A stretch of DNA of 64,000 bases from Ghiorsea bivora. GTDB taxonomy: Bacteria; Pseudomonadota; Zetaproteobacteria; Mariprofundales; Mariprofundaceae. This document shows, piece by piece, positions 8,282 to 62,609 of this stretch. The notes under the pieces were generated by a model. The model worked only from the letters and a program-made list of their open reading frames with translations. It did no database searches and was not told where the DNA came from. Where the stretch lies: NCBI RefSeq assembly GCF_000744415.1, contig NZ_JQLW01000006.1, positions 124,001 to 188,000 of the forward strand, read 5' to 3'. The position numbers and the translations under genes are program-made. Within the stretch, counting starts at the first letter, position 1, and every line of letters begins with the position of its first letter.

Positions 8282-11029
8282 CTATAGTTGATGAGATTCA
8301 AACCAGCTAGTGCCAATACCAATGTCGGCAATCAATGGAACATCAAGTGTAACAGCAGCTTCCATCACCTCTTTTATCAAAGCTGATACCTGCTCAACAT
8401 CAGTTTCACTACATTCCACAATCAATTCATCATGCACTTGCATAATCAAACGTGCCTGAGGAAACAATTCATTTAACTTCATTTGCAGTTGAATCATAGC
8501 AACCTTAATAATATCTGCTGCCGAACCTTGAAGTGGCGCATTAATCGCTGTGCGCTCAGCATAAGCTTTTTGCATGCCGTTGCTGCTATTGATGTCTGGC
8601 ACTTGCACTCTATGCCCCAACAGCGTTTCTACATACCCCTGGACACGCGCTTTTTCCAAAGTGCTGTCCATAAAGGTTTGCACGGTGGGATATTGGGCAA
8701 AATAAGCTTCAATAAACGCCTTGGCATCACCTCGGCTCACGCCCAGTTGTTTTGCCAAACCAAATGCACTCATGCCATACAAAATACCGAAGTTGACTGC
8801 TTTGGCTTGCCTTCGTTGTTCTCCCGTGACTTCTTCTAAAGGAATTTGATTCACCGAAGCTGCCGTTGCCGCATGAATATCCAAACCATCGGCAAATGCT
8901 TGTTTTAAATTGGCATCACCCGAAAAGTGCGCCATCAAACGCAGTTCAATTTGTGAATAATCGGCCGCTATCAATTGGTTCCCTGCTTCTGCAACAAAGG
9001 CTTTGCGAATTTCACGCCCTTCTTCAGAGCGAATCGGGATATTTTGTAAGTTTGGGTTGGTTGATGACAAACGACCAGTAGTTGTCACCGCTTGGTTGTA
9101 AGATGTGTGAACACGCCCTGTTTTTTTATTAATCATCTTCTGCAAAGCATCGGTGTATGTCGATTTTAGTTTGGACAAACTACGCACTTCTAAAATCAAA
9201 CGCGGCACTTCGTGTTCAGCAGCCAACTTTTCCAACACTTCTTGCCCAGTTGCCCATTGCCCAGATTTGGTTTTTTTGCCACCCTCAATACCCAAGGTTT
9301 CAAATAACAACACACCCAACTGCTTGGGTGATTGGATATTAAACTCTTGCCCTGCTGCTGCAAAAATCTTGGTCTGCAACGCATCAATACGCTCACCAAA
9401 CTTGGTCGAAAGCGTGTGCAATTGCGCCACATCAATGTATGCACCATCCCACTCCATATCTGCAAGCACAAAAGATAAGGGAAGCTCAATATCATCATGG
9501 CGTTTGATATGTTCACCCAACTTATCTTGGAATTTATGACAAAGTCGGAGTGTAACTTCCGCATCTTCCGCCGCATATTTCGCTGCTTCTTCAATGCCAA
9601 TCAAATCAAAGGTGATTTGTTTAACGCCTTTGCCCGCAATAGATTCAAAAGAAACACATTCATGCCCCAAATATTTAAGCGCAAGTTTATCCATGTTTAC
9701 GGCTTGCCCAGCTTCCAAAACATACGCCATCAACATCGTATCAAACTTCACACCTTGAAGTGTAATACCCTCATTGCGTAAAATTTGTTTATCATATTTA
9801 TTGTTCTGCAAACATTTGGCTTTGTTTTTATCTTCCAAGATAGGTTTCAAAGCCGAAAATACGCTTTTTTTGTCCAACTGTTTGGGTGCTTCACTCAATA
9901 AATCCATGCCACGATGCGCAACCGGCACATAATAACCCACACCTGCCTTCACAGAAAACGATAAACCCACCAAATCCGCATCATGGATATTTAAGGATGT
10001 GGTCTCCGTATCCACAGCAATCAGGTCAGCCGCATTTAACACATTCACCAAGTCAGCCAGTTTGGCTTTATCGTCCACAATAATCGTTGTTAAAGGTTTT
10101 TGCTCGGCAAAGACTTCTTCGACTTCATTGTGTTCACTATCAGGTGAGGCAATAACCGATGGTGTCACCACTTCATCACCATCCAAAAACTCAGCCGTTA
10201 AACGCCTAAATTCCAGCTCAGCAAACACTTTCACCAACGCTTCACGGTTGGGTTTTTGCACCTTCAAATCATCAAGTGTTAATGGCAATGGTGTTTGTTC
10301 ATCCAATGCCACAAGGTCATACGATAATCGTGCATCATCAGCAAATTCAATCAGGTTTTCCCTGCGTTTATTTTGTTTGATTTCATGGGCATGGCTTAAA
10401 ATGCCTTCCAAATCGCCATAGGTATTAATCAGCTCAAGTGCTGTTTTCGGGCCAATACCTGGCACACCAGGGATATTATCCGCCGAGTCCCCTGCAAGCG
10501 CCAAAAGGTCTTGCACTTTGGCAGGTTCAACACCCCACTTTTCTTTCACTTCATCGATGCCATATTCTTTGCGGCGCATGGTGTCTAACATCCAAATCTT
10601 ATCACCCACCAATTGCATCAAATCTTTATCTGTGGATACAATGGTCACGTCCCAGCCTTTGGCTTCTGCTTGCCTTGCCAATGTCGCAATCACATCATCC
10701 GCTTCATAATTCTGCACACAAATACGCGCAAAATTAAAGGCATCGGTCACTTCATAAATATAGTTCCATTGGGCTGCCAAGTCTTCGGGCATAGGCGGGC
10801 GATGGGCTTTGTATTCTTTATACATATCATTACGAAATGTGCCGCCCTTAGGGTCAAACACCACAGCAACATGGGTAGGGCTTAAGTCTTTAAGGATGCT
10901 ACGCACCATTTGCACATAACCAAACACCGCATTGGTCGGCTGCCCCTTAGAATTGCTTAAATTATGTTTCACCGCATGAAACGCACGAAAAACATAGTTG
11001 GGACCATCAATTAAAACCAAATGCGGCAT
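8282..11029 (-). CDS. polA: DNA polymerase I
   Basis: Repair and Okazaki-fragment-processing polymerase, 915 residues, the usual length. Three domains are complete. The 5'-3' exonuclease (1-290) carries acidic motifs such as YEADDVIATL at 108-117 and GDSADNIPGVPGIG from 180. The 3'-5' proofreading exonuclease (about 315-510) has the DxE motif DTETTS with Asp340 and Glu342, so proofreading is expected to be active. The polymerase domain (530-915) has DYSQIELR (Asp690), the finger motif RRQAKAVNFGILYG (Lys743) and QVHDE (Asp867, Glu868). It sits 37 bp upstream of the 6367-8244 kinase gene but is not obviously related to it in function. Confidence 0.98.
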   Translation of the reverse strand: MPHLVLIDGPNYVFRAFHAVKHNLSNSKGQPTNAVFGYVQMVRSILKDLSPTHVAVVFDPKGGTFRNDMYKEYKAHRPPMPEDLAAQWNYIYEVTDAFNFARICVQNYEADDVIATLARQAEAKGWDVTIVSTDKDLMQLVGDKIWMLDTMRRKEYGIDEVKEKWGVEPAKVQDLLALAGDSADNIPGVPGIGPKTALELINTYGDLEGILSHAHEIKQNKRRENLIEFADDARLSYDLVALDEQTPLPLTLDDLKVQKPNREALVKVFAELEFRRLTAEFLDGDEVVTPSVIASPDSEHNEVEEVFAEQKPLTTIIVDDKAKLADLVNVLNAADLIAVDTETTSLNIHDADLVGLSFSVKAGVGYYVPVAHRGMDLLSEAPKQLDKKSVFSALKPILEDKNKAKCLQNNKYDKQILRNEGITLQGVKFDTMLMAYVLEAGQAVNMDKLALKYLGHECVSFESIAGKGVKQITFDLIGIEEAAKYAAEDAEVTLRLCHKFQDKLGEHIKRHDDIELPLSFVLADMEWDGAYIDVAQLHTLSTKFGERIDALQTKIFAAAGQEFNIQSPKQLGVLLFETLGIEGGKKTKSGQWATGQEVLEKLAAEHEVPRLILEVRSLSKLKSTYTDALQKMINKKTGRVHTSYNQAVTTTGRLSSTNPNLQNIPIRSEEGREIRKAFVAEAGNQLIAADYSQIELRLMAHFSGDANLKQAFADGLDIHAATAASVNQIPLEEVTGEQRRQAKAVNFGILYGMSAFGLAKQLGVSRGDAKAFIEAYFAQYPTVQTFMDSTLEKARVQGYVETLLGHRVQVPDINSSNGMQKAYAERTAINAPLQGSAADIIKVAMIQLQMKLNELFPQARLIMQVHDELIVECSETDVEQVSALIKEVMEAAVTLDVPLIADIGIGTSWFESHQL

Positions 11030-11111
11030 ACAAACATCCTTAAAATTAAAGTTGATGCTATGATGGTATGATAAACATAATGGTCAACAGCTTAAAAAAC
11101 GCTACGAGATA

Positions 11112-12587
11112 TTACCTGCGCTCTTTTACTGTATATTCATAAGTCACAAGGAACTCCGTTACCGCAGTATCCAAGGTACCCTGAAACGCTTTTAAACGAC
11201 CCGCGCCTAGACGTATACCCACACCATTTTCCCACTGATAATCTGCATAAATATTGCCCATATACAGTGCTCCACCACCAACGGATGTTCCGCCACCGCC
11301 ACCACCACCTACGGCGACTTCTAAAGACAAGGAACTTTTACGCTCGAATAAAGGTATACGGTAACCAAGGTCAACAAAAGCTGCTCCGTAACCACCATAC
11401 CTTCCTCCCTTAGCGGCATACATCATATGTACACCATAATAAAGGTGCTCATTGGCAAATCGATTGACGACAACTTCTGAAGCTGAAAATGGTACTGCAT
11501 TTACACTGCCGCTAGGCGTGACCGTATGATAATTAAATGCGCCCACATGCCATACGTAATCAGTCGTATAAAAATTGTAAGGTTCTGCATATGGATTGTC
11601 CAAATCAACAGTAAACTCTACACCAACGTATTGTGCCTGCATGGCCCCTTGAACTGCTGCAACATATCCACTTTCCAGTGAAACTTGTGCATCTTTCGTG
11701 ATATCAACCGCCAAATTCACTGCGGCTTTGGCAAGCATTCCACCTTGTGTCAGCACTGCTGCACCACCGCCCATACCTATACCAATACGCGCACCAATAT
11801 TTATTGCATCTGTCCACATCGGGTATTCAACCCCTAAAAAACCTAAATACTCTGCATAACCACCAAGTTTGCCACCTGCGGCACCTACAATTTCTACACC
11901 CCAGTATGACGTTGGGGTCATCCAGTGCTCTGAACGTGCACCAAGCATCGTGGCAGTATCCTGAACATCGCTACGCAATAAATACCCACGATAAGAAGCA
12001 ACAGTAGCTCGAACACGGTGAAAACCTATGCCTCCATCAACGGGCTTTTGCGCAACAGCAGGCTGCTCATTGTATTTCACAGTATAAAAATCTTGGCTAG
12101 ATAAAAAAACAAAACCGAGCTGTCTGCTTGTAGCTGTACCATACGGAAAACGAACTTGAGATGTCGATATACCCACTTGATAATCTTTTAATTGATAAAG
12201 AATATCAAAATATGGTCGAATGGTTAATCCGCCACCCACCAAGTTATTTGCACCGCCACCACCGCCGCCACCAATATAAATACCTACACCTGAAAACCAT
12301 TGGTCTTTAATCTGTTTGCACCAAAGTGCTTCTGCACCAAGTGAAAAGAACCCGCCCCGCTGCCCAGTTACGGCACCATAAAGTGTCGCACCCACAAATA
12401 TATTATCATATGTTTCCAGTAAATAACTCGCACCAACCCAGCCTAAGCTTTCTTTATCCGTAAGTTGGATGTTTTCTACCGTCATTTTCATAAGTGCATT
12501 ATTAGCGGTCATCACTTGGCTTTCTTCAGCATTTGCATTGACCATGCTACAAAGTAAAAACAATATTATGTTTATATAAATTTTCAT
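11112..12587 (-). CDS. Exported protein built of three ~100-residue repeats with glycine-rich segments
   Basis: Not recognised as a named family. It has a signal peptide (residues 1-20, cleavage near NANA/EE) and no internal hydrophobic helix; alternating patterns and a C-terminus ending in alternating aromatic/hydrophobic residues suggest an outer-membrane beta-barrel. The mature protein is made of three related units, roughly residues 62-163, 227-328 and 382-487. Each starts with a Y/F-G-V/A-x6-G-x4-GG pattern, continues through a hydrophobic strand into a glycine run (seven G at 106-112 and seven at 427-433; a shorter GMGGG in the middle copy), and ends with a strand pair. Its ATG overlaps the stop of ogt (ATGA), so the two are co-translated, although no shared role is evident. 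Barrel localisation is inference. Confidence 0.7.
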   Translation of the reverse strand: MKIYINIILFLLCSMVNANAEESQVMTANNALMKMTVENIQLTDKESLGWVGASYLLETYDNIFVGATLYGAVTGQRGGFFSLGAEALWCKQIKDQWFSGVGIYIGGGGGGGANNLVGGGLTIRPYFDILYQLKDYQVGISTSQVRFPYGTATSRQLGFVFLSSQDFYTVKYNEQPAVAQKPVDGGIGFHRVRATVASYRGYLLRSDVQDTATMLGARSEHWMTPTSYWGVEIVGAAGGKLGGYAEYLGFLGVEYPMWTDAINIGARIGIGMGGGAAVLTQGGMLAKAAVNLAVDITKDAQVSLESGYVAAVQGAMQAQYVGVEFTVDLDNPYAEPYNFYTTDYVWHVGAFNYHTVTPSGSVNAVPFSASEVVVNRFANEHLYYGVHMMYAAKGGRYGGYGAAFVDLGYRIPLFERKSSLSLEVAVGGGGGGGTSVGGGALYMGNIYADYQWENGVGIRLGAGRLKAFQGTLDTAVTEFLVTYEYTVKERR

Positions 12588-13090
12588 CCAGACTGTTCTA
12601 AAGCCAAAAGCTTTCTTTTGGCAGGTAAACCACCCGCATAACCTACTAACGAACCATCAGAGCCAATAATGCGATGGCATGGAATCATGATGGAGATTGC
12701 ATTCGCTCCGTTGGCTGATGCCACAGCACGCACAGCTTTTTCATTGCCTATACTTTTGGATAAGACCAAATAAGAAGAGGTTGTACCATAAGGAATATCA
12801 ATCAATTCCCGCCAAACCTGCTTCTGAAAGTCAGTGCCTACCATCAACAATGGTATATTAAAGTTTTGACGTTGCCGATTAAAGTATTCATCCAATTCTT
12901 GGCGGGCTTGTTGCAGCACCGCCGTATCTTCTTCAATGTAAGTTACGCTCAAACCTTTTTGTAATCTAGCATCAATACTTTTTCGCGTTTTTCTATAGCG
13001 CCAATCCGCCATACATAATTGATTATCGTATACACCAAGTATCAATTCACCTGCTGGTGTATGAAAGTATTGTACTTGAATGTAAGACAT
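12584..13090 (-). CDS. ogt: Methylated-DNA-protein-cysteine S-methyltransferase
   Basis: Suicide DNA-repair protein that moves a methyl group from O6-methylguanine to its own cysteine. The active-site motif IPCHR is at 137-140 with acceptor Cys138, followed by the conserved Gly-rich segment GYAGGLPAKRKLL at 150-162; the arginine-finger region RAVASANGAN lies at 121-130. At 168 residues it has the short N-terminal domain of Ogt-type enzymes without an Ada regulatory part. It lies 30 bp downstream of thrC and overlaps the downstream repeat-protein gene by four bases. Whether it is Ogt or the separate MGMT type in strict nomenclature cannot be settled from the sequence alone. Confidence 0.93.
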   Translation of the reverse strand: MSYIQVQYFHTPAGELILGVYDNQLCMADWRYRKTRKSIDARLQKGLSVTYIEEDTAVLQQARQELDEYFNRQRQNFNIPLLMVGTDFQKQVWRELIDIPYGTTSSYLVLSKSIGNEKAVRAVASANGANAISIMIPCHRIIGSDGSLVGYAGGLPAKRKLLALEQSG

Positions 13091-16873: not shown

Positions 16874-19800
16874 TTATTTCTTAGGTTCATCCTCATCAAG
16901 CAAACCTTTAAGGTCATTCATTAACCCATCTAATTCAGTGGTTGCTTCTAAGTCTTCAGCCGCATTGTTTTGTAGTGATTCAATACTGGTTTCAATATTT
17001 TCAAGTTCACCGGTCGCATTAAAAACATCTTCCATAGGGTCGGATGAAACATCCATCATCAATGTTTTATCACTATCCATATCATCAAGGCTAGCCAAAT
17101 GATCATTATCAGCTTTTACATCGGCAGCCGATGTTTGCGCTAAGTTCTTCTGCGTATTATCCATTATAACAGTTGAATCAAAAGCATCGGATGCTGGTTT
17201 GGAAGTCGAACTGTCTTCTGTTTCCTCATCCAAGCTTATTTCTTGCAAATCAAAATCGTCTAAATCCAATTCTGTTGAAGCTTCCGCACTTACCTCATCA
17301 TCGGCATCAATAAGCAAGTCATCACCAATCATATCCAACCCATCCAAATCAACTTCAGATGTTAGCTCTTCTTCAATAGCTTTCACTTCATCTAGTGCAG
17401 AATCAGTGTCTTCTGAAAAACCAGATAAATCCAAGGATATACTATCCAAGTCTTCTAAAGGTTCTTGATCATGACTTTGTTTAGCCGAATCATCCAAAGC
17501 TAGCACATCGGTACCTAAATCTTGAATTTCATCAATATCATCATTGGATATATCTGAAGCCAAGTTGCTCTCTTCAGCATCGCTAAGCAGTGCATTGGCT
17601 GCTTCAAATGGATCTTCCGCATCTGCAGGAATCTCAACTGCAGTAGCATTTGCTTCCTCTTCTGCTTGCGCACGTGCTTGTTCTACCTGCCTATCATTGA
17701 TTGCATCATCAAGCTTGGCTTCAGCTTCGCCCGAAGAAACAACCATGGTTTCATCTGTTGTTTGCACAGCAGAAGTGCTTTCTAAATCATCATCTTCTAG
17801 GTCAATTTCATTTAATAAATTCTCAGAACTATCAGTCTCATCAAAATCGATACCATAGTTTTCTAGGTCTATGCTTTTTTCCATATCTGAAAGTTCACTG
17901 CTTGCTTCCTCAGTATCACTTGCACCCATTTCACTAAAGTCAAAATCTACTTCAATCTCATCTGCACTGTCACTTTCATCTTTCGATTCAGTTTCATCTG
18001 TGGATGAATTACTTAGGAAATCACCAAAGTCCACAGCACCTGTATCCAATGATTCATCTTCCATCACATCGGCAGTTTTATTTGTGACGTTATCCGATGT
18101 GTCCGTAGCATCACTTGTATCCAAGCTTACTTCATCTACAGTTAAATCGCCGAAGTCCAGTTCACCTGTATCCAAAGCTTCGATACTCATAGCGTCTTCT
18201 AACTCATCATCTGCTGAAGCACTTTCTTCCACTATTACATTTTCTTGCACATCATTTTCTTCAACATCTAAGTCACCAAAGTCCAACTCACCTGTATCCA
18301 ATTCAATGTTGCCCATCACATCTTCTAATGCAACATCATCTGTTGAAACCATATCCTCAACATCACTTGCTTCAGTAAGGTCTAGGGCACCAAAATCTAA
18401 GTCACCCGTATCCAAAGCTTGGGCATCATCCATTGCATCTTCATCACCCAAATTTATTGAGTCAAGGCCAATATCATCTACATTTTCGCCTGTATCTGTT
18501 TCACCAAAATCAATACCTGCAAAATCGATATCATCACCCATATCGATACCAGCATCTTCTTCCACATCACCAAAATCCATTTTACCTGTATCAAGTAGCT
18601 CTGGCTCCATCACATCTTCAGGCATACTGTCTGTAGACGCACTGTCTGAATCAGATGATATACTATCTGGAGCATCAAAATTAATAGCGCCAAAATCCAC
18701 AATACCTGTGTCTTCACCAGTAAAATCGTCATCCTTTAATGCTGAGATTTCAGATGCTTGCTCAGCATCATCTACTGCACCACTGGTAGCATCATCACTA
18801 CTTGCCGCCTCAGCTGAAGAATCAGCCAACAAACCCTCAAATGTTGCCAAAGCAGAACCTACCAACACAGCTTTGGCTGCATTAAGTGCCGCTTCTTCAC
18901 CTTCTGAGTTTTTACGCATGCGCAAAATTCGCACCAATTTTGCATGTGCTGCAGCATCTTGATCATCCAACTTCAATGCCAGACGTACTTGTTTCTCTGC
19001 TTCATCTTCCATGCCATAACGCAAGTAAACATCAGCTTCTTCAAGATAATTCACGCTAGGATCTGGTGTCTCATCTACATCGCTATCAAAGGCATCCATT
19101 TCTCCCGTTTCATCATCGGTAAAGTCTGGGATTTCCTCTAAAGGCTCATCATTATTGGTTGGATTTTCTCTTACAGCCTGCTCTTCAGACAAGTCTGAAG
19201 GCATTTCAAAATCATCAACATCCATTTGCTTGGTTGCATCTTGATCATCAACGGATTCAACATCATATTCTTCCACAACATCATCAAACACTTCTTCTTT
19301 TGACGCAGTTTGTTCTGCTGGATGTTTGGGTTGGCGGCGCAACAACATCACCACAGCACCAATAAGACCCAATACCAACAACCCAAGCCCAGATAATGCA
19401 TACATGAGCCAGCCTGAAGTATCTTGTTCTTCACTTGCTTTAGCCTTCTCTAATTGACCTTTTAAACGTGAGATAACAATTTCCAAACGTTTGTTTTGCG
19501 CATCTAAAGCTGCCGCATCCACAGTAACCGTTGCTTCATTGGCTTTTTTCTCAGCAGCTTGCAAACGTTCTTCCAAGGCAGACATTTTATTTTGTAATGA
19601 TGAAAGCTCACTATCCTTTTGCGCAATCACTTGCTCTGCTGCAATCAATTTTGCAGAAACCTCTTGGTCAGCCATGTTTGTTTGAGGCTGAACTTCTTCG
19701 GCTTGTAGTGGTTTTTTTGTTTTTTCTGGTGCCAACATGGGTGCGCTAGCAACACCTGAAGCCTTCTGACCTATGCGAACACGACGTGTATAACGATGTT

Positions 19801-20701
19801 TTTGTGCATCAGCAACAGCAGCATACTTGGGCTGCTTGGTCATGTTTTTCCAAACCTTATTTTGCTCGCTAATCACTTGTTTGGCATGGGCAACAGAAAC
19901 TTGTTCCACTTCTTCAGCCGCAGGTACATCCAAATACGAACCTGCTTTAATTAAGTTGATATTACCTTTACCAAACTTATCTTTATTCTTTTCAAATAAA
20001 GCAACCATCACCTGTTGATTGGTAAACCTATCATCCAAACGTAATCGTTTGGCAACCACCGTAATCGTGTCACCATAAACCATTGGCCCGTAACGCGATG
20101 TACGTGCCCAACCTGAATACGGCTTAAAGGTATTTTCCACAACTTGTTCAGATTGGCTATCATCAACAGGCTCTACAAAAGCAGATTTTGCACCTTGCGG
20201 TACTTTAGTGATAAAGGCATCAGAAGTATCTGGTTGAACTGTTGCTGCATTTACAGGGGCTGCAACCACTTTGGGTGCTTCATTCTCCTGCATCATTTCA
20301 ACCGCAGCAGACTCTAAGAAAATAGGTAGTTTTTTGTAATGGGTCGAACGTCCATAACGTACTTTAAGGACTAGATTAAAGAACGCTGTATCGATAGGTG
20401 CTTCTGAGGTGAGTTTAACACGCGCCCCACGTTCATCTTTGACAATATCTGTACGGATTTGGTTGATCACTTGATCTCGATATACTTCGAGAATTCGATA
20501 GTCCGATGAAGAACCTAGCTCAACAGAAATTTTCGAAAGTGTTTCCTTCCCATCCAAGCGAAGTGGCACTTCGGCGTAAAAAGGTTCACCAATATGGCTC
20601 GCCACATCAATACGCTCAAATGATACTGCTCCCACACTTTGAATGCCGAACAAAAAAACCAGCACAAAGCTTAAAAAAACATGCATAGCTCGCTGAAGCA
20701 T
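16874..20701 (-). CDS. fimV: FimV/HubP-family polar landmark protein with acidic DTG repeats
   Basis: Large inner-membrane protein (1275 residues) of the FimV/HubP family, which organises cell poles and type IV pili or flagella in related bacteria. In order: signal peptide (1-25); periplasmic N-terminal domain typical of FimV (26-130); LysM-like peptidoglycan-binding segment (about 204-260, YGPMVYGDTITVVAKRLR); coiled coil (345-420); single membrane helix (431-455); then a long cytoplasmic acidic region. A TPR-like helical pair is at 552-612. From 663 to 893 the motif LDTGxxDFG recurs six times (DTG at 664, 704, 764, 802, 844, 886), 38-60 residues apart. AGGAGG stands 7 bases before the ATG. 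The length and acidity are normal for FimV; the regular DTG repeats are the unusual part. Confidence 0.88.
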   Translation of the reverse strand: MLQRAMHVFLSFVLVFLFGIQSVGAVSFERIDVASHIGEPFYAEVPLRLDGKETLSKISVELGSSSDYRILEVYRDQVINQIRTDIVKDERGARVKLTSEAPIDTAFFNLVLKVRYGRSTHYKKLPIFLESAAVEMMQENEAPKVVAAPVNAATVQPDTSDAFITKVPQGAKSAFVEPVDDSQSEQVVENTFKPYSGWARTSRYGPMVYGDTITVVAKRLRLDDRFTNQQVMVALFEKNKDKFGKGNINLIKAGSYLDVPAAEEVEQVSVAHAKQVISEQNKVWKNMTKQPKYAAVADAQKHRYTRRVRIGQKASGVASAPMLAPEKTKKPLQAEEVQPQTNMADQEVSAKLIAAEQVIAQKDSELSSLQNKMSALEERLQAAEKKANEATVTVDAAALDAQNKRLEIVISRLKGQLEKAKASEEQDTSGWLMYALSGLGLLVLGLIGAVVMLLRRQPKHPAEQTASKEEVFDDVVEEYDVESVDDQDATKQMDVDDFEMPSDLSEEQAVRENPTNNDEPLEEIPDFTDDETGEMDAFDSDVDETPDPSVNYLEEADVYLRYGMEDEAEKQVRLALKLDDQDAAAHAKLVRILRMRKNSEGEEAALNAAKAVLVGSALATFEGLLADSSAEAASSDDATSGAVDDAEQASEISALKDDDFTGEDTGIVDFGAINFDAPDSISSDSDSASTDSMPEDVMEPELLDTGKMDFGDVEEDAGIDMGDDIDFAGIDFGETDTGENVDDIGLDSINLGDEDAMDDAQALDTGDLDFGALDLTEASDVEDMVSTDDVALEDVMGNIELDTGELDFGDLDVEENDVQENVIVEESASADDELEDAMSIEALDTGELDFGDLTVDEVSLDTSDATDTSDNVTNKTADVMEDESLDTGAVDFGDFLSNSSTDETESKDESDSADEIEVDFDFSEMGASDTEEASSELSDMEKSIDLENYGIDFDETDSSENLLNEIDLEDDDLESTSAVQTTDETMVVSSGEAEAKLDDAINDRQVEQARAQAEEEANATAVEIPADAEDPFEAANALLSDAEESNLASDISNDDIDEIQDLGTDVLALDDSAKQSHDQEPLEDLDSISLDLSGFSEDTDSALDEVKAIEEELTSEVDLDGLDMIGDDLLIDADDEVSAEASTELDLDDFDLQEISLDEETEDSSTSKPASDAFDSTVIMDNTQKNLAQTSAADVKADNDHLASLDDMDSDKTLMMDVSSDPMEDVFNATGELENIETSIESLQNNAAEDLEATTELDGLMNDLKGLLDEDEPKK

Positions 20702-59812: not shown

Positions 59813-60541
59813 CTAAAAGCTATAACCCAACAACACCGAAGTTTTCGTATCCGTAGGCACCTTGCCCACTGGTGGTTTTGTAATGGTTCGTTCTTCATGG
59901 CTAAAATCAACGGTAAAACCATGGAAAAGCTGGTGAACCCAAGTGATTTCACGCAATAAAAAATCATCGTCATTGCCAAGCTCACCCGAAATTTTCACAT
60001 TCACCTTATTATCACCATCAAAAACATATTCACTCATCAAAGCCACATGTTTACCATTATCGTGGTCAACTTTGAGTTTGTTCACTTTCTCGGTTATCCG
60101 CTGCCCATAACCAAGCTCTACATCCACCAAAAAGTTAGGAACATCTGTAAAAGCATGGTAACCCAAGGCTACGACATAAGACTTTTCACTATAAATACCA
60201 CTAAACTCATCTTGCCGATAACCCAGCTGAATCACAGTATATATATGATTCACAATATCATAACTACCACGCAAATATGCCTCATAATAATCAGAGGTTA
60301 ATACACCATCTTCTTTTGTTTGCGAGGCTTTGAAGGTAAATGTTGAAGCCCAATCTTGATACGAATAGGATAAATCCAAGTTACCATCAAAGTTATCCGT
60401 ATTGGTATTACCTGAGCTAAGGTTGCCTCCAAAATTCACACTTCCCGAAAAAGTTTGCGCTGGTGTTTCATCAGCATAACCAACTTGTGCAACCAACAAC
60501 ATCAACCCACAACAAGCACCAACCACATTATGCTTTAACAT
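59813..60541 (-). CDS. DUF481-family outer-membrane beta-barrel protein
   Basis: 242 residues. A signal peptide (1-22, QVGYA/DE) is followed by alternating strands such as GSVNFGGNLSSGNTNTDNFDGNLDLSY, typical of DUF481 (YdiY-like) proteins, and ends in an aromatic strand LLGYSF. ATG 60541 is preceded by AAAGGAG at the right spacing; the frame is open further but not needed. Predicted outer-membrane barrel of unknown role. It faces uvrB across 94 bp. Confidence 0.85.
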   Translation of the reverse strand: MLKHNVVGACCGLMLLVAQVGYADETPAQTFSGSVNFGGNLSSGNTNTDNFDGNLDLSYSYQDWASTFTFKASQTKEDGVLTSDYYEAYLRGSYDIVNHIYTVIQLGYRQDEFSGIYSEKSYVVALGYHAFTDVPNFLVDVELGYGQRITEKVNKLKVDHDNGKHVALMSEYVFDGDNKVNVKISGELGNDDDFLLREITWVHQLFHGFTVDFSHEERTITKPPVGKVPTDTKTSVLLGYSF

Positions 60542-60635
60542 GTTTACTCCTTTAAACACACAGCTTTTTTCAAAAAAGAAACCTATGCACCACCAACTGG
60601 GATGCAAACATTTCCTATTGGCGTAAGCTTCGCCC

Positions 60636-62609
60636 ATGAAATTCAAACTCGCAGGCAATTTTACACCCCAAGGCGATCAACCCGCCGCGATTGATACGCT
60701 TGTACGCGGACTTGAAAGTGATGAACCTCACCAGGTCTTGCTTGGGGTCACAGGCTCAGGTAAAACCTACACCATGGCATGTGTGATTGAACGTTCACAA
60801 AAACCAACTCTAATCCTCGCTCCCAACAAAACACTGGCAGCCCAACTTTATGGCGAGTTCAAGCAGTTTTTCCCTGAAAATGCAGTGGAATATTTCGTAT
60901 CTTATTACGACTATTATCAGCCTGAAGCATATGTGCCAGCATCGGATACTTTTATCGAAAAAGACTCTGCCATCAATGAACATATTGATAGAATGCGCCA
61001 CGCTGCCACCCGTGCTTTATTGGAACGCGAAGATGTGATTATTATTGCTTCTGTATCATGTATTTATGGTCTAGGTAGCCCTGAAGCGTATGCTAATATG
61101 TTGCAATATTTTGAAGTAGGACGCGAACAAGACCAACGTGCCGCCGTCAATAAACTGGTCGAATTACAATACACCCGAAATGATATGGATTTCCACAGGG
61201 GTACATTTCGTTTACGTGGTGATGTGCTTGAAATTTACCCTGCCGACGCTGAAGACTCTGCCATTCGCGTCGAATTTTTTGGTGATGATATTGATGCTAT
61301 TTCCCGTTTCAACCCACTCACTGGGCAACGCATAGAATCTTTGCATAAATACACAGTTTTTCCAAAATCGCACTTTGTTACCCCCAGATCCACCTTGCTT
61401 AACGCTATGGAAAACATCAAAGTCGAGTTGTCTGAACGTTTGGCAGAGCTGTACGACCAAAACAAACTGGTTGAAGCCCAACGCTTGGAGCAGCGCACCA
61501 TATTTGATTTAGAAATGATTCAAGAAATTGGACACTGCACGGGTATGGAAAATTACTCGCGGCATTTATCAGGGAGAAAAGCTGGAGAAGCACCACCAAC
61601 TTTACTGGATTATTTACCCAATAATGCCGTGGTCATGCTGGATGAATCTCATGTGACTGTACCCCAAATTGGTGGTATGTTTAAAGGCGATAGAGCACGC
61701 AAACAGACCTTGGTTGACTTTGGTTTTAGGTTACCCTCAGCACTGGACAATAGACCCTTACAATTTCACGAGTTTGAAGCCATTGCACCACAAATTATCC
61801 ATGTTTCAGCCACACCTGGCAATTATGAAATGGAAAAAACAGGCGGTGTATTCATTGAACAAATCATCCGTCCAACTGGGCTTATTGACCCTGAAATTGA
61901 AGTCCGCCCAGCAAGCACGCAAGTTGATGATTTCATTGGTGCAGCCAATGAAGTGATAACCAAAGGTGACCGTGTCTTAGCCACTTGTTTAACCAAACGT
62001 ATGGCAGAAGATTTAACTGAATATTTAACCGATGTAGGTTTAAGAGTACGCTATTTACACTCTGATATTAAAACCATTGAACGCATGGAAATCTTGCGTG
62101 ACTTGCGTCTGGGTGAGTTTGATATCTTGGTAGGTATCAATTTACTTCGCGAAGGTTTGGATTTACCCGAAGTAAGCTTGGTTTGTATTTTTGATGCCGA
62201 CAAAGAAGGGTTCTTACGCTCTGTGCGTTCACTGATTCAAACCATTGGTCGCGCTGCACGCAATGCAGAAGGCAAGGTTATTTTGTATGCCGACAAAATC
62301 ACAAAATCCATGAAACAAGCCATGGATGAAACCAGCCGTCGCCGCGAAAAACAACTGGCTTACAATGCACAACATGGCATCACCCCTTTAACCATTAAAA
62401 AAGAAATCCAAGATATTCTTGGTTCGGTTTACAACTTGGATTATGCCCACATCCCAGAAATCGCAGAACCTACCCCGTTAACGCCTTACGAGAAAAGCGT
62501 GCGTATCAATGAGCTTGAACGTTTAATGACCGAAGCTGCTGCTGATTTAAGGTTTGAGGATGCTGCCAAGTACCGCGATGAAGTGGCAAAGCTTAAAGAT
62601 GATGTTTAA
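60636..62609 (+). CDS. uvrB: Excinuclease ABC subunit B
   Basis: DNA-damage recognition helicase of nucleotide excision repair, 657 residues. Walker A GVTGSGKT (Lys43), the beta-hairpin region [18 protein letters not shown] box II, the QTIGRAARN motif, and the C-terminal UVR domain [20 protein letters not shown] are all present. Its last 17 bases overlap the convergent double CRP-like gene. Confidence 0.98.

Follow-up and report, generated by a model that had tools for sequence, protein, structure and literature searches.

A three-unit protein of Ghiorsea bivora, predicted to lie in the outer membrane, and its relatives beside polysaccharide-export genes

The window, a stretch of 64,000 nucleotides from the marine iron oxidiser Ghiorsea bivora (assembly GCF_000744415.1, contig NZ_JQLW01000006.1) with a GC content of 42.8%, carries at 11112..12587, on the minus strand, an open reading frame that is a real, conserved gene. 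It encodes P0001, a 491-aa protein predicted to be an outer-membrane protein of three units, and is the only copy in the genome of the window (2,154,483 bases in 13 contigs). The stop codon of an ogt-like gene (12584..13090, minus strand; the name is that used in the initial annotation) overlaps the start of P0001 by four bases, 12584-12587, which read ATGA on the minus strand, in agreement with the overlap that the annotation had described. Residues 1-20 (MKIYINIILFLLCSMVNANA; 12528..12587, minus strand) have the appearance of the signal peptide it had also proposed, a judgement made by eye and not by program. A threonine synthase-like gene follows ogt in the window, at the position where a Ghiorsea relative (L061) has an LpxR gene (10104-11099; Pfam E 1e-99) just beyond ogt and two genes from its own relative of P0001.

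All three units are encoded on the minus strand. Unit 1 (residues 26-168; 12084..12512) has eight predicted strands and includes a run of seven glycines (residues 106-112; 12252..12272) in the predicted hairpin between strands 5 and 6. Unit 2 (residues 186-332; 11592..12032) likewise has eight predicted strands, which form an NspA/OmpA-like barrel in the full-length model, and its glycine run is GGG only. Unit 3 (residues 340-491; 11115..11570), again of eight predicted strands and modelled as an 8-stranded barrel when folded alone, has a second run of seven glycines (residues 427-433; 11289..11309), also in the strand 5-6 hairpin. The runs of seven consecutive glycines reported earlier for two of the units are therefore those of units 1 and 3, and the units themselves, first put at ~100 residues, are longer, at 135-152 residues.

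When P0001 is aligned to itself, the Smith-Waterman scores between its units are 89, 65 and 102, values equalled or exceeded by 0, 2 and 0 shuffled copies per 1000. Profile-profile comparison, with unit profiles built from 16 relatives, matches unit 1 to unit 2 at 97.4% (E 1.4e-11), unit 1 to unit 3 at 97.1% (E 5.7e-11), and unit 2 to unit 3 at 99.7% (E 2.5e-26). With one profile reversed as a control, pairs of different units gave 1.6-8.1% in 6/6 cases, and a unit set against its own reversed profile gave 33.5% for unit 1, and 2.8 and 2.4% for the other two. A common pattern is visible in the alignment, GAxxGxxGGY, then GxxGGG...GGGL, then (A/F)PxG, with its three parts in hairpins 3-4, 5-6 and 7-8, respectively (strands taken from AlphaFold2); the second of these hairpins takes its most extreme form in the poly-glycine runs. 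Judged by sequence comparison, P0001 is a triplication of one unit, and the three similar units seen at the outset are homologous.

The triplication is kept throughout a family. A search with the single protein found matches in 17/78 genomes of the window's class (Zetaproteobacteria), and a 16-row profile found matches in 20/398 genomes drawn from the phylum, in 10/143 genomes of the class of G311 and in 8/56 relatives of G437, these samples being overlapping ones. G311 is probably a gammaproteobacterium, as suggested by a gene order that to the eye resembles rpsA-ihfB-lapAB-pyrF. The profile of a single unit has matches in 23/398 genomes. Full-length members have three units each, and these searches brought up no convincing relative with one or two units. 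Weak matches in G130, G225 and G114 (E 3e-5 to 2e-3) were not accepted as relatives; among them, only L111 and L112 kept the match to the unit. Searches of plasmids with P0001 and the L101 protein returned no relatives, nor were any found on viral contigs.

In a tree of 29 proteins, whose deeper order is resolved in part, the three Ghiorsea proteins encoded at polA/ogt group together with full support, and their branch is long, at 1.89 changes per column. A second subfamily (L024, L067-L071), also on a long branch, has the unit 1 glycine run and lacks the glycine hairpin of unit 3. A second copy in G428 (L108; G428:C1, 8270-9832) carries an in-frame TGA, reads as two ORFs, and lies near a very large glycine-rich ORF.

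Pfam and NCBIfam yielded no match over the curated cut-offs for P0001 or its relatives, which bears out the earlier impression that the protein has no named homologues, and no single family in these collections extends across the three units. The nearest is OMP_b-brl (PF13505), the best score being that of the middle unit of L113, at 27.2 bits against a cut-off of 28.7; the match of one relative's middle unit has an E of 5e-6, under the cut-off. Such weak matches occur in 4/26 family members, and P0001 itself has none. GfcD/YjbH (DUF940) is absent from the Pfam matches of P0001 at E up to 10 and from those of 16 + 10 further members at E up to 1, and Wzi has no Pfam match in P0001 and 26 members. 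Relatives sought by sequence in the PDB gave chance-level matches only (E 5.9 and 1.9), and were set aside. Identity with sfz3 of the stalk cluster, a protein of similar length according to section 14 of PMC8250860, was also considered; that source reports the sfz cluster to be lacking in the stalk-less group, in which it places TAG-1.

An AlphaFold2 model of the full-length protein, computed from four sequences, is weak (pLDDT 56.2, pTM 0.48), and gives eight strands per unit rather than an unstructured chain, with the first strand of unit 3 split in two and stretches of ~15-30 residues between units. Within it, residues 187-330 of unit 2 match NspA with Z 19.4 and an rmsd of 2.1 over 141 aligned residues, followed by OmpA, OprF, OmpW and PagL, with sequence identities of 6-12% in the rows of the NspA/OmpA/OmpW/PagL-type barrels. 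Unit 1, as modelled within the full-length chain, has as its best match a soluble protein, at Z 8.5. Unit 3, folded alone from ten rows of repeats, is modelled with eight strands (pLDDT 78.2, pTM 0.72); a Legionella Dot/Icm porin heads its matches (Z 17.0), with OmpW (Z 16.7, rmsd 2.6, 143 aligned), OprF (Z 16.5), NspA (Z 16.4) and OmpA also matched. Neither a polysaccharide porin nor Wzi is among the 50 matches listed per comparison for the full-length model and for unit 3, which proves nothing. The fold predicted for one unit is that of NspA, the OmpA transmembrane domain, OmpW and PagL, proteins that have one barrel per chain, unlike the three-unit P0001.

Soluble barrels also occur among the structural matches, at ~Z 8 against the full-length model and up to 11.5 against unit 3, and glycine runs are found in many secreted proteins, so that a soluble, secreted protein of repeated beta-sheet units, outside any membrane, has to be considered. 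With outer-membrane 8-stranded barrels at the top of both structure lists (Z 16-19), and the weak OMP_b-brl matches among family members, this reading is very improbable. The triplicated barrel module with poly-glycine turns that was first suggested for a surface protein is supported, if by a full-length model of low confidence, and the likeliest architecture, held with good but not full confidence on the strength of the models, is three separate 8-stranded barrels in one chain. A unit modelled on its own is biased towards closing, and the closure of unit 2 inside the complete chain therefore weighs more.

In the gene neighbourhoods of the relatives, a Poly_export or Glycos_transf_4 gene occurs no more than 10 kb away from 15 of the 29 main-family genes, with ~0.96 expected; the tail value of 2e-15 for this linkage assumes independence and is overstated, the rows being related, and should not be taken literally. 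The 29 genes omit two N-terminal fragments located on separate contigs (G027:C39 and G034:C113) and the second pieces of split matches, and include genes on short contigs, which can only reduce the linked count; members in G532 and G533 were left out of it. The 15 linked genes show about nine arrangements, one of which is common to five. In L058 and L065 the gene lies beside UDP-glucose dehydrogenase, a sugar epimerase, a Wzb-like phosphatase, Poly_export and a Wzc-like kinase; in L109 it is between a phosphatase and Wza/Wzc; in L104 and L105 it is directly upstream of a 917-947 aa SLBB/Poly_export protein; and in L102 it adjoins an epimerase and an 846 aa SLBB protein. A WecA-like Glycos_transf_4 adjoins the gene or is one gene off in L101, L103, L056, L057, L059 and L060. 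The partners named by Pfam are SLBB/Poly_export, Wzz, Wzc, LMW-PTP, UDP-glucose dehydrogenase and WecA-like proteins, such names being those of 20 chosen neighbour proteins, with the rest (e.g. in L065 and L056) assigned by clustering or by eye.

The 14 unlinked genes of the 29 include the window gene, whose nearest Poly_export gene is 73 kb away, together with every one of its close relatives and further genes located on short contigs. The small Ghiorsea clade that includes P0001 is located at polA/ogt, away from such genes. In other genomes of the same genus (G024 and G028) the family is represented by members of the mainly linked group (L017 and L023), so P0001 belongs to a divergent branch outside the export loci. 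Linkage in the second subfamily is 0/8, counting L024, L067-L071, further G049/G050 copies and the broken G428 copy. On contig C9 of the window organism's own genome (G000), at ~85-104 kb, its WecA-like gene stands no more than 18 kb from one of its two Poly_export genes, and a P0001-type gene is not nearby.

These unlinked members, that is the window gene with its clade and the second subfamily in 8/8 cases, could be accounted for if the three-barrel protein were an outer-membrane stabiliser, an adhesin or a lipid A-related protein, the polysaccharide loci of its relatives being incidental. Two window-type relatives lie near LpxR (in G026 by Pfam and in G035 by clustering), and 1/16 members has a weak Pfam match to PagL (E 0.039). 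PagL has a catalytic triad of His/Ser/Glu. Among 16 members no His, Asp or Glu is invariant, the Glu E46 being nearly so, which makes an enzyme unlikely and leaves the His and Glu of a PagL-type catalytic site without an invariant counterpart. As the linkage recurs in different arrangements and in two classes, a role outside polysaccharide biology is on the whole unlikely, and a family role in surface polysaccharide is moderately favoured.

The OPX proteins encoded within 10 kb of the relatives have open frames of 391, 403, 458, 478, 863, 923 and 949 aa, with a further one of 332 aa cut by a contig end. The gene set of OPX, Wzb-like phosphatase and Wzc-like kinase was identified by Pfam around L058 and L109, and around L065 by its clustering with L058; the window gene is without it. 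Sharing its neighbourhoods with OPX proteins, the family might itself supply the polymer pore, its units joining as a single 24-stranded barrel like EpsX or AlgE. The units are joined without any other domain between them, and the OPX of L058 (454 aa), in which a Wza_C match is absent, might need a separate pore. Foldseek does align the whole model to large porins, but with a TM of only 0.33 or less and an rmsd of 15-25, an overlay too poor to be retained. The full-length model closed unit 2 unforced as an 8-stranded barrel, unit 3 closes alone, the linking residues part the units, and, among other OPX neighbours, that of L109 matches Wza_C slightly below the cut-off and that of L104 has a GfcC domain; a 24-stranded pore is hence quite improbable. 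Small closed barrels of OmpA type have no polymer-sized lumen, and P0001, each barrel of which is predicted to be of the OmpA/NspA/PagL size class, is unlikely to be a polymer pore.

In barrel proteins of this sort it is generally the outer loops that vary. Across 16 members, and with hairpins 1-2, 3-4, 5-6 and 7-8 placed outside by an assumed canonical topology, the extracellular hairpins average 3.10 bits of conservation versus 2.42 for the periplasmic ones; when columns in which P0001 has glycine are removed, the values are 2.85 versus 2.38 bits, hairpin columns not being independent.

Together these observations suggest, tentatively and with a little less than even likelihood, a triple-barrel outer-membrane protein acting as a surface platform for exported polysaccharide. 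Three tandem 8-stranded barrels, 24 strands in one chain, would be inserted by the BAM machinery, with the termini in the periplasm (the usual rule) and the conserved glycine-rich hairpins of all three barrels at the cell surface. The family protein would lie beside the export machinery, consisting of a Wza-like OPX, Wzz/Wzc and a WecA-like initiating enzyme, and its hairpin surface would receive, dock or organise the exported polysaccharide next to the OPX exit, without being the exit. This placement is drawn from the lack of a polymer lumen, the conserved outer face, and OPX proteins some of which appear to have a membrane segment of their own, as the near-cut-off Wza_C in L109 and the GfcC domain in L104 suggest. 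The platform mechanism as such is rather unlikely to hold in this detail. It is doubtful, if somewhat less so, that the family is a conserved non-pore export component in two proteobacterial classes, its three fused barrels offering an unvarying glycine-hairpin surface, around the OPX exit or beside it, that guides or anchors the polymer, and that the divergent Ghiorsea member has left the locus. Function transfer from the family to the window protein is the weakest step, and the same polysaccharide role in the window organism is an extrapolation that falls somewhat short of even likelihood.

Multi-barrel outer-membrane proteins are a known kind (Solan et al. 2021, PNAS, as cited in PMC8592465 and PMC9603273), with which P0001 would share the feature of more than one beta-barrel per chain, by prediction. 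GfcD/YjbH are described as two-barrel proteins of the group 4 capsule and yjb operons (PMC8592465, PMC11494523, PMC9603273), encoded with OPX, phosphatase and kinase in the manner of some relatives, though not of the window gene; GfcD has 12- and 13-strand barrels plus a globular domain, with a lateral gate proposed, whereas P0001 has three homologous units predicted to be 8-stranded. Wzi, an 18-stranded capsule-anchoring lectin with a helical plug (PMC9601211), offers an analogy for the role proposed here, which would be surface attachment of exported polysaccharide and not export; it is a single barrel, and P0001 has no Pfam match to it. A platform role would thus resemble that of Wzi or GfcD on a different fold. 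EpsX, ExoB and WzpB, each an 18-stranded barrel that is coupled to a short OPX protein (PMC9601211, section 11; PMC9603273, section 9), are outer-membrane barrels coded beside OPX genes, and so, by prediction, are the relatives with OPX neighbours. They are open 18-stranded barrels with OPX proteins of 280 aa or less, in contrast to the predicted small closed barrels and OPX proteins of ~332-949 aa here, and an OPX of ≤280 aa within five genes, as in the short OPX/beta-barrel translocon, is found for neither the window gene nor its relatives.

The templates with which PMC9603273 searched the surroundings of OPX genes (MXAN_7418/3226/1916, PgaA, GfcD, YjbH, BcsC, AlgE and Wzi) include none of triple-barrel type, and the 486 barrel proteins near OPX genes reported in PMC9601211 may include relatives of P0001. 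The multi-barrel kind is already known, and the triple 8-stranded family is unnamed in Pfam/NCBIfam; no account of a triple 8-stranded barrel was found in the literature searched, the 2021 multi-barrel survey lying outside that scope. The exit of polysaccharides through the outer membrane and their retention there are understood only in part, and unnamed barrel proteins are encoded in many export loci; this family is a concrete candidate. Its value as such lies in the keeping of exactly three units in two classes and in extracellular hairpins better conserved than periplasmic ones, and the family also bears on the evolution and BAM folding of fused barrels.

Elsewhere in the window, 59813-60658 encodes a secreted protein that has by eye the look of a DUF481-type outer-membrane barrel, and the C-terminal half of a 1275-aa ORF at 16874-20701, FimV-like by eye, repeats acidic motifs of the TG-x-x-DFG type.
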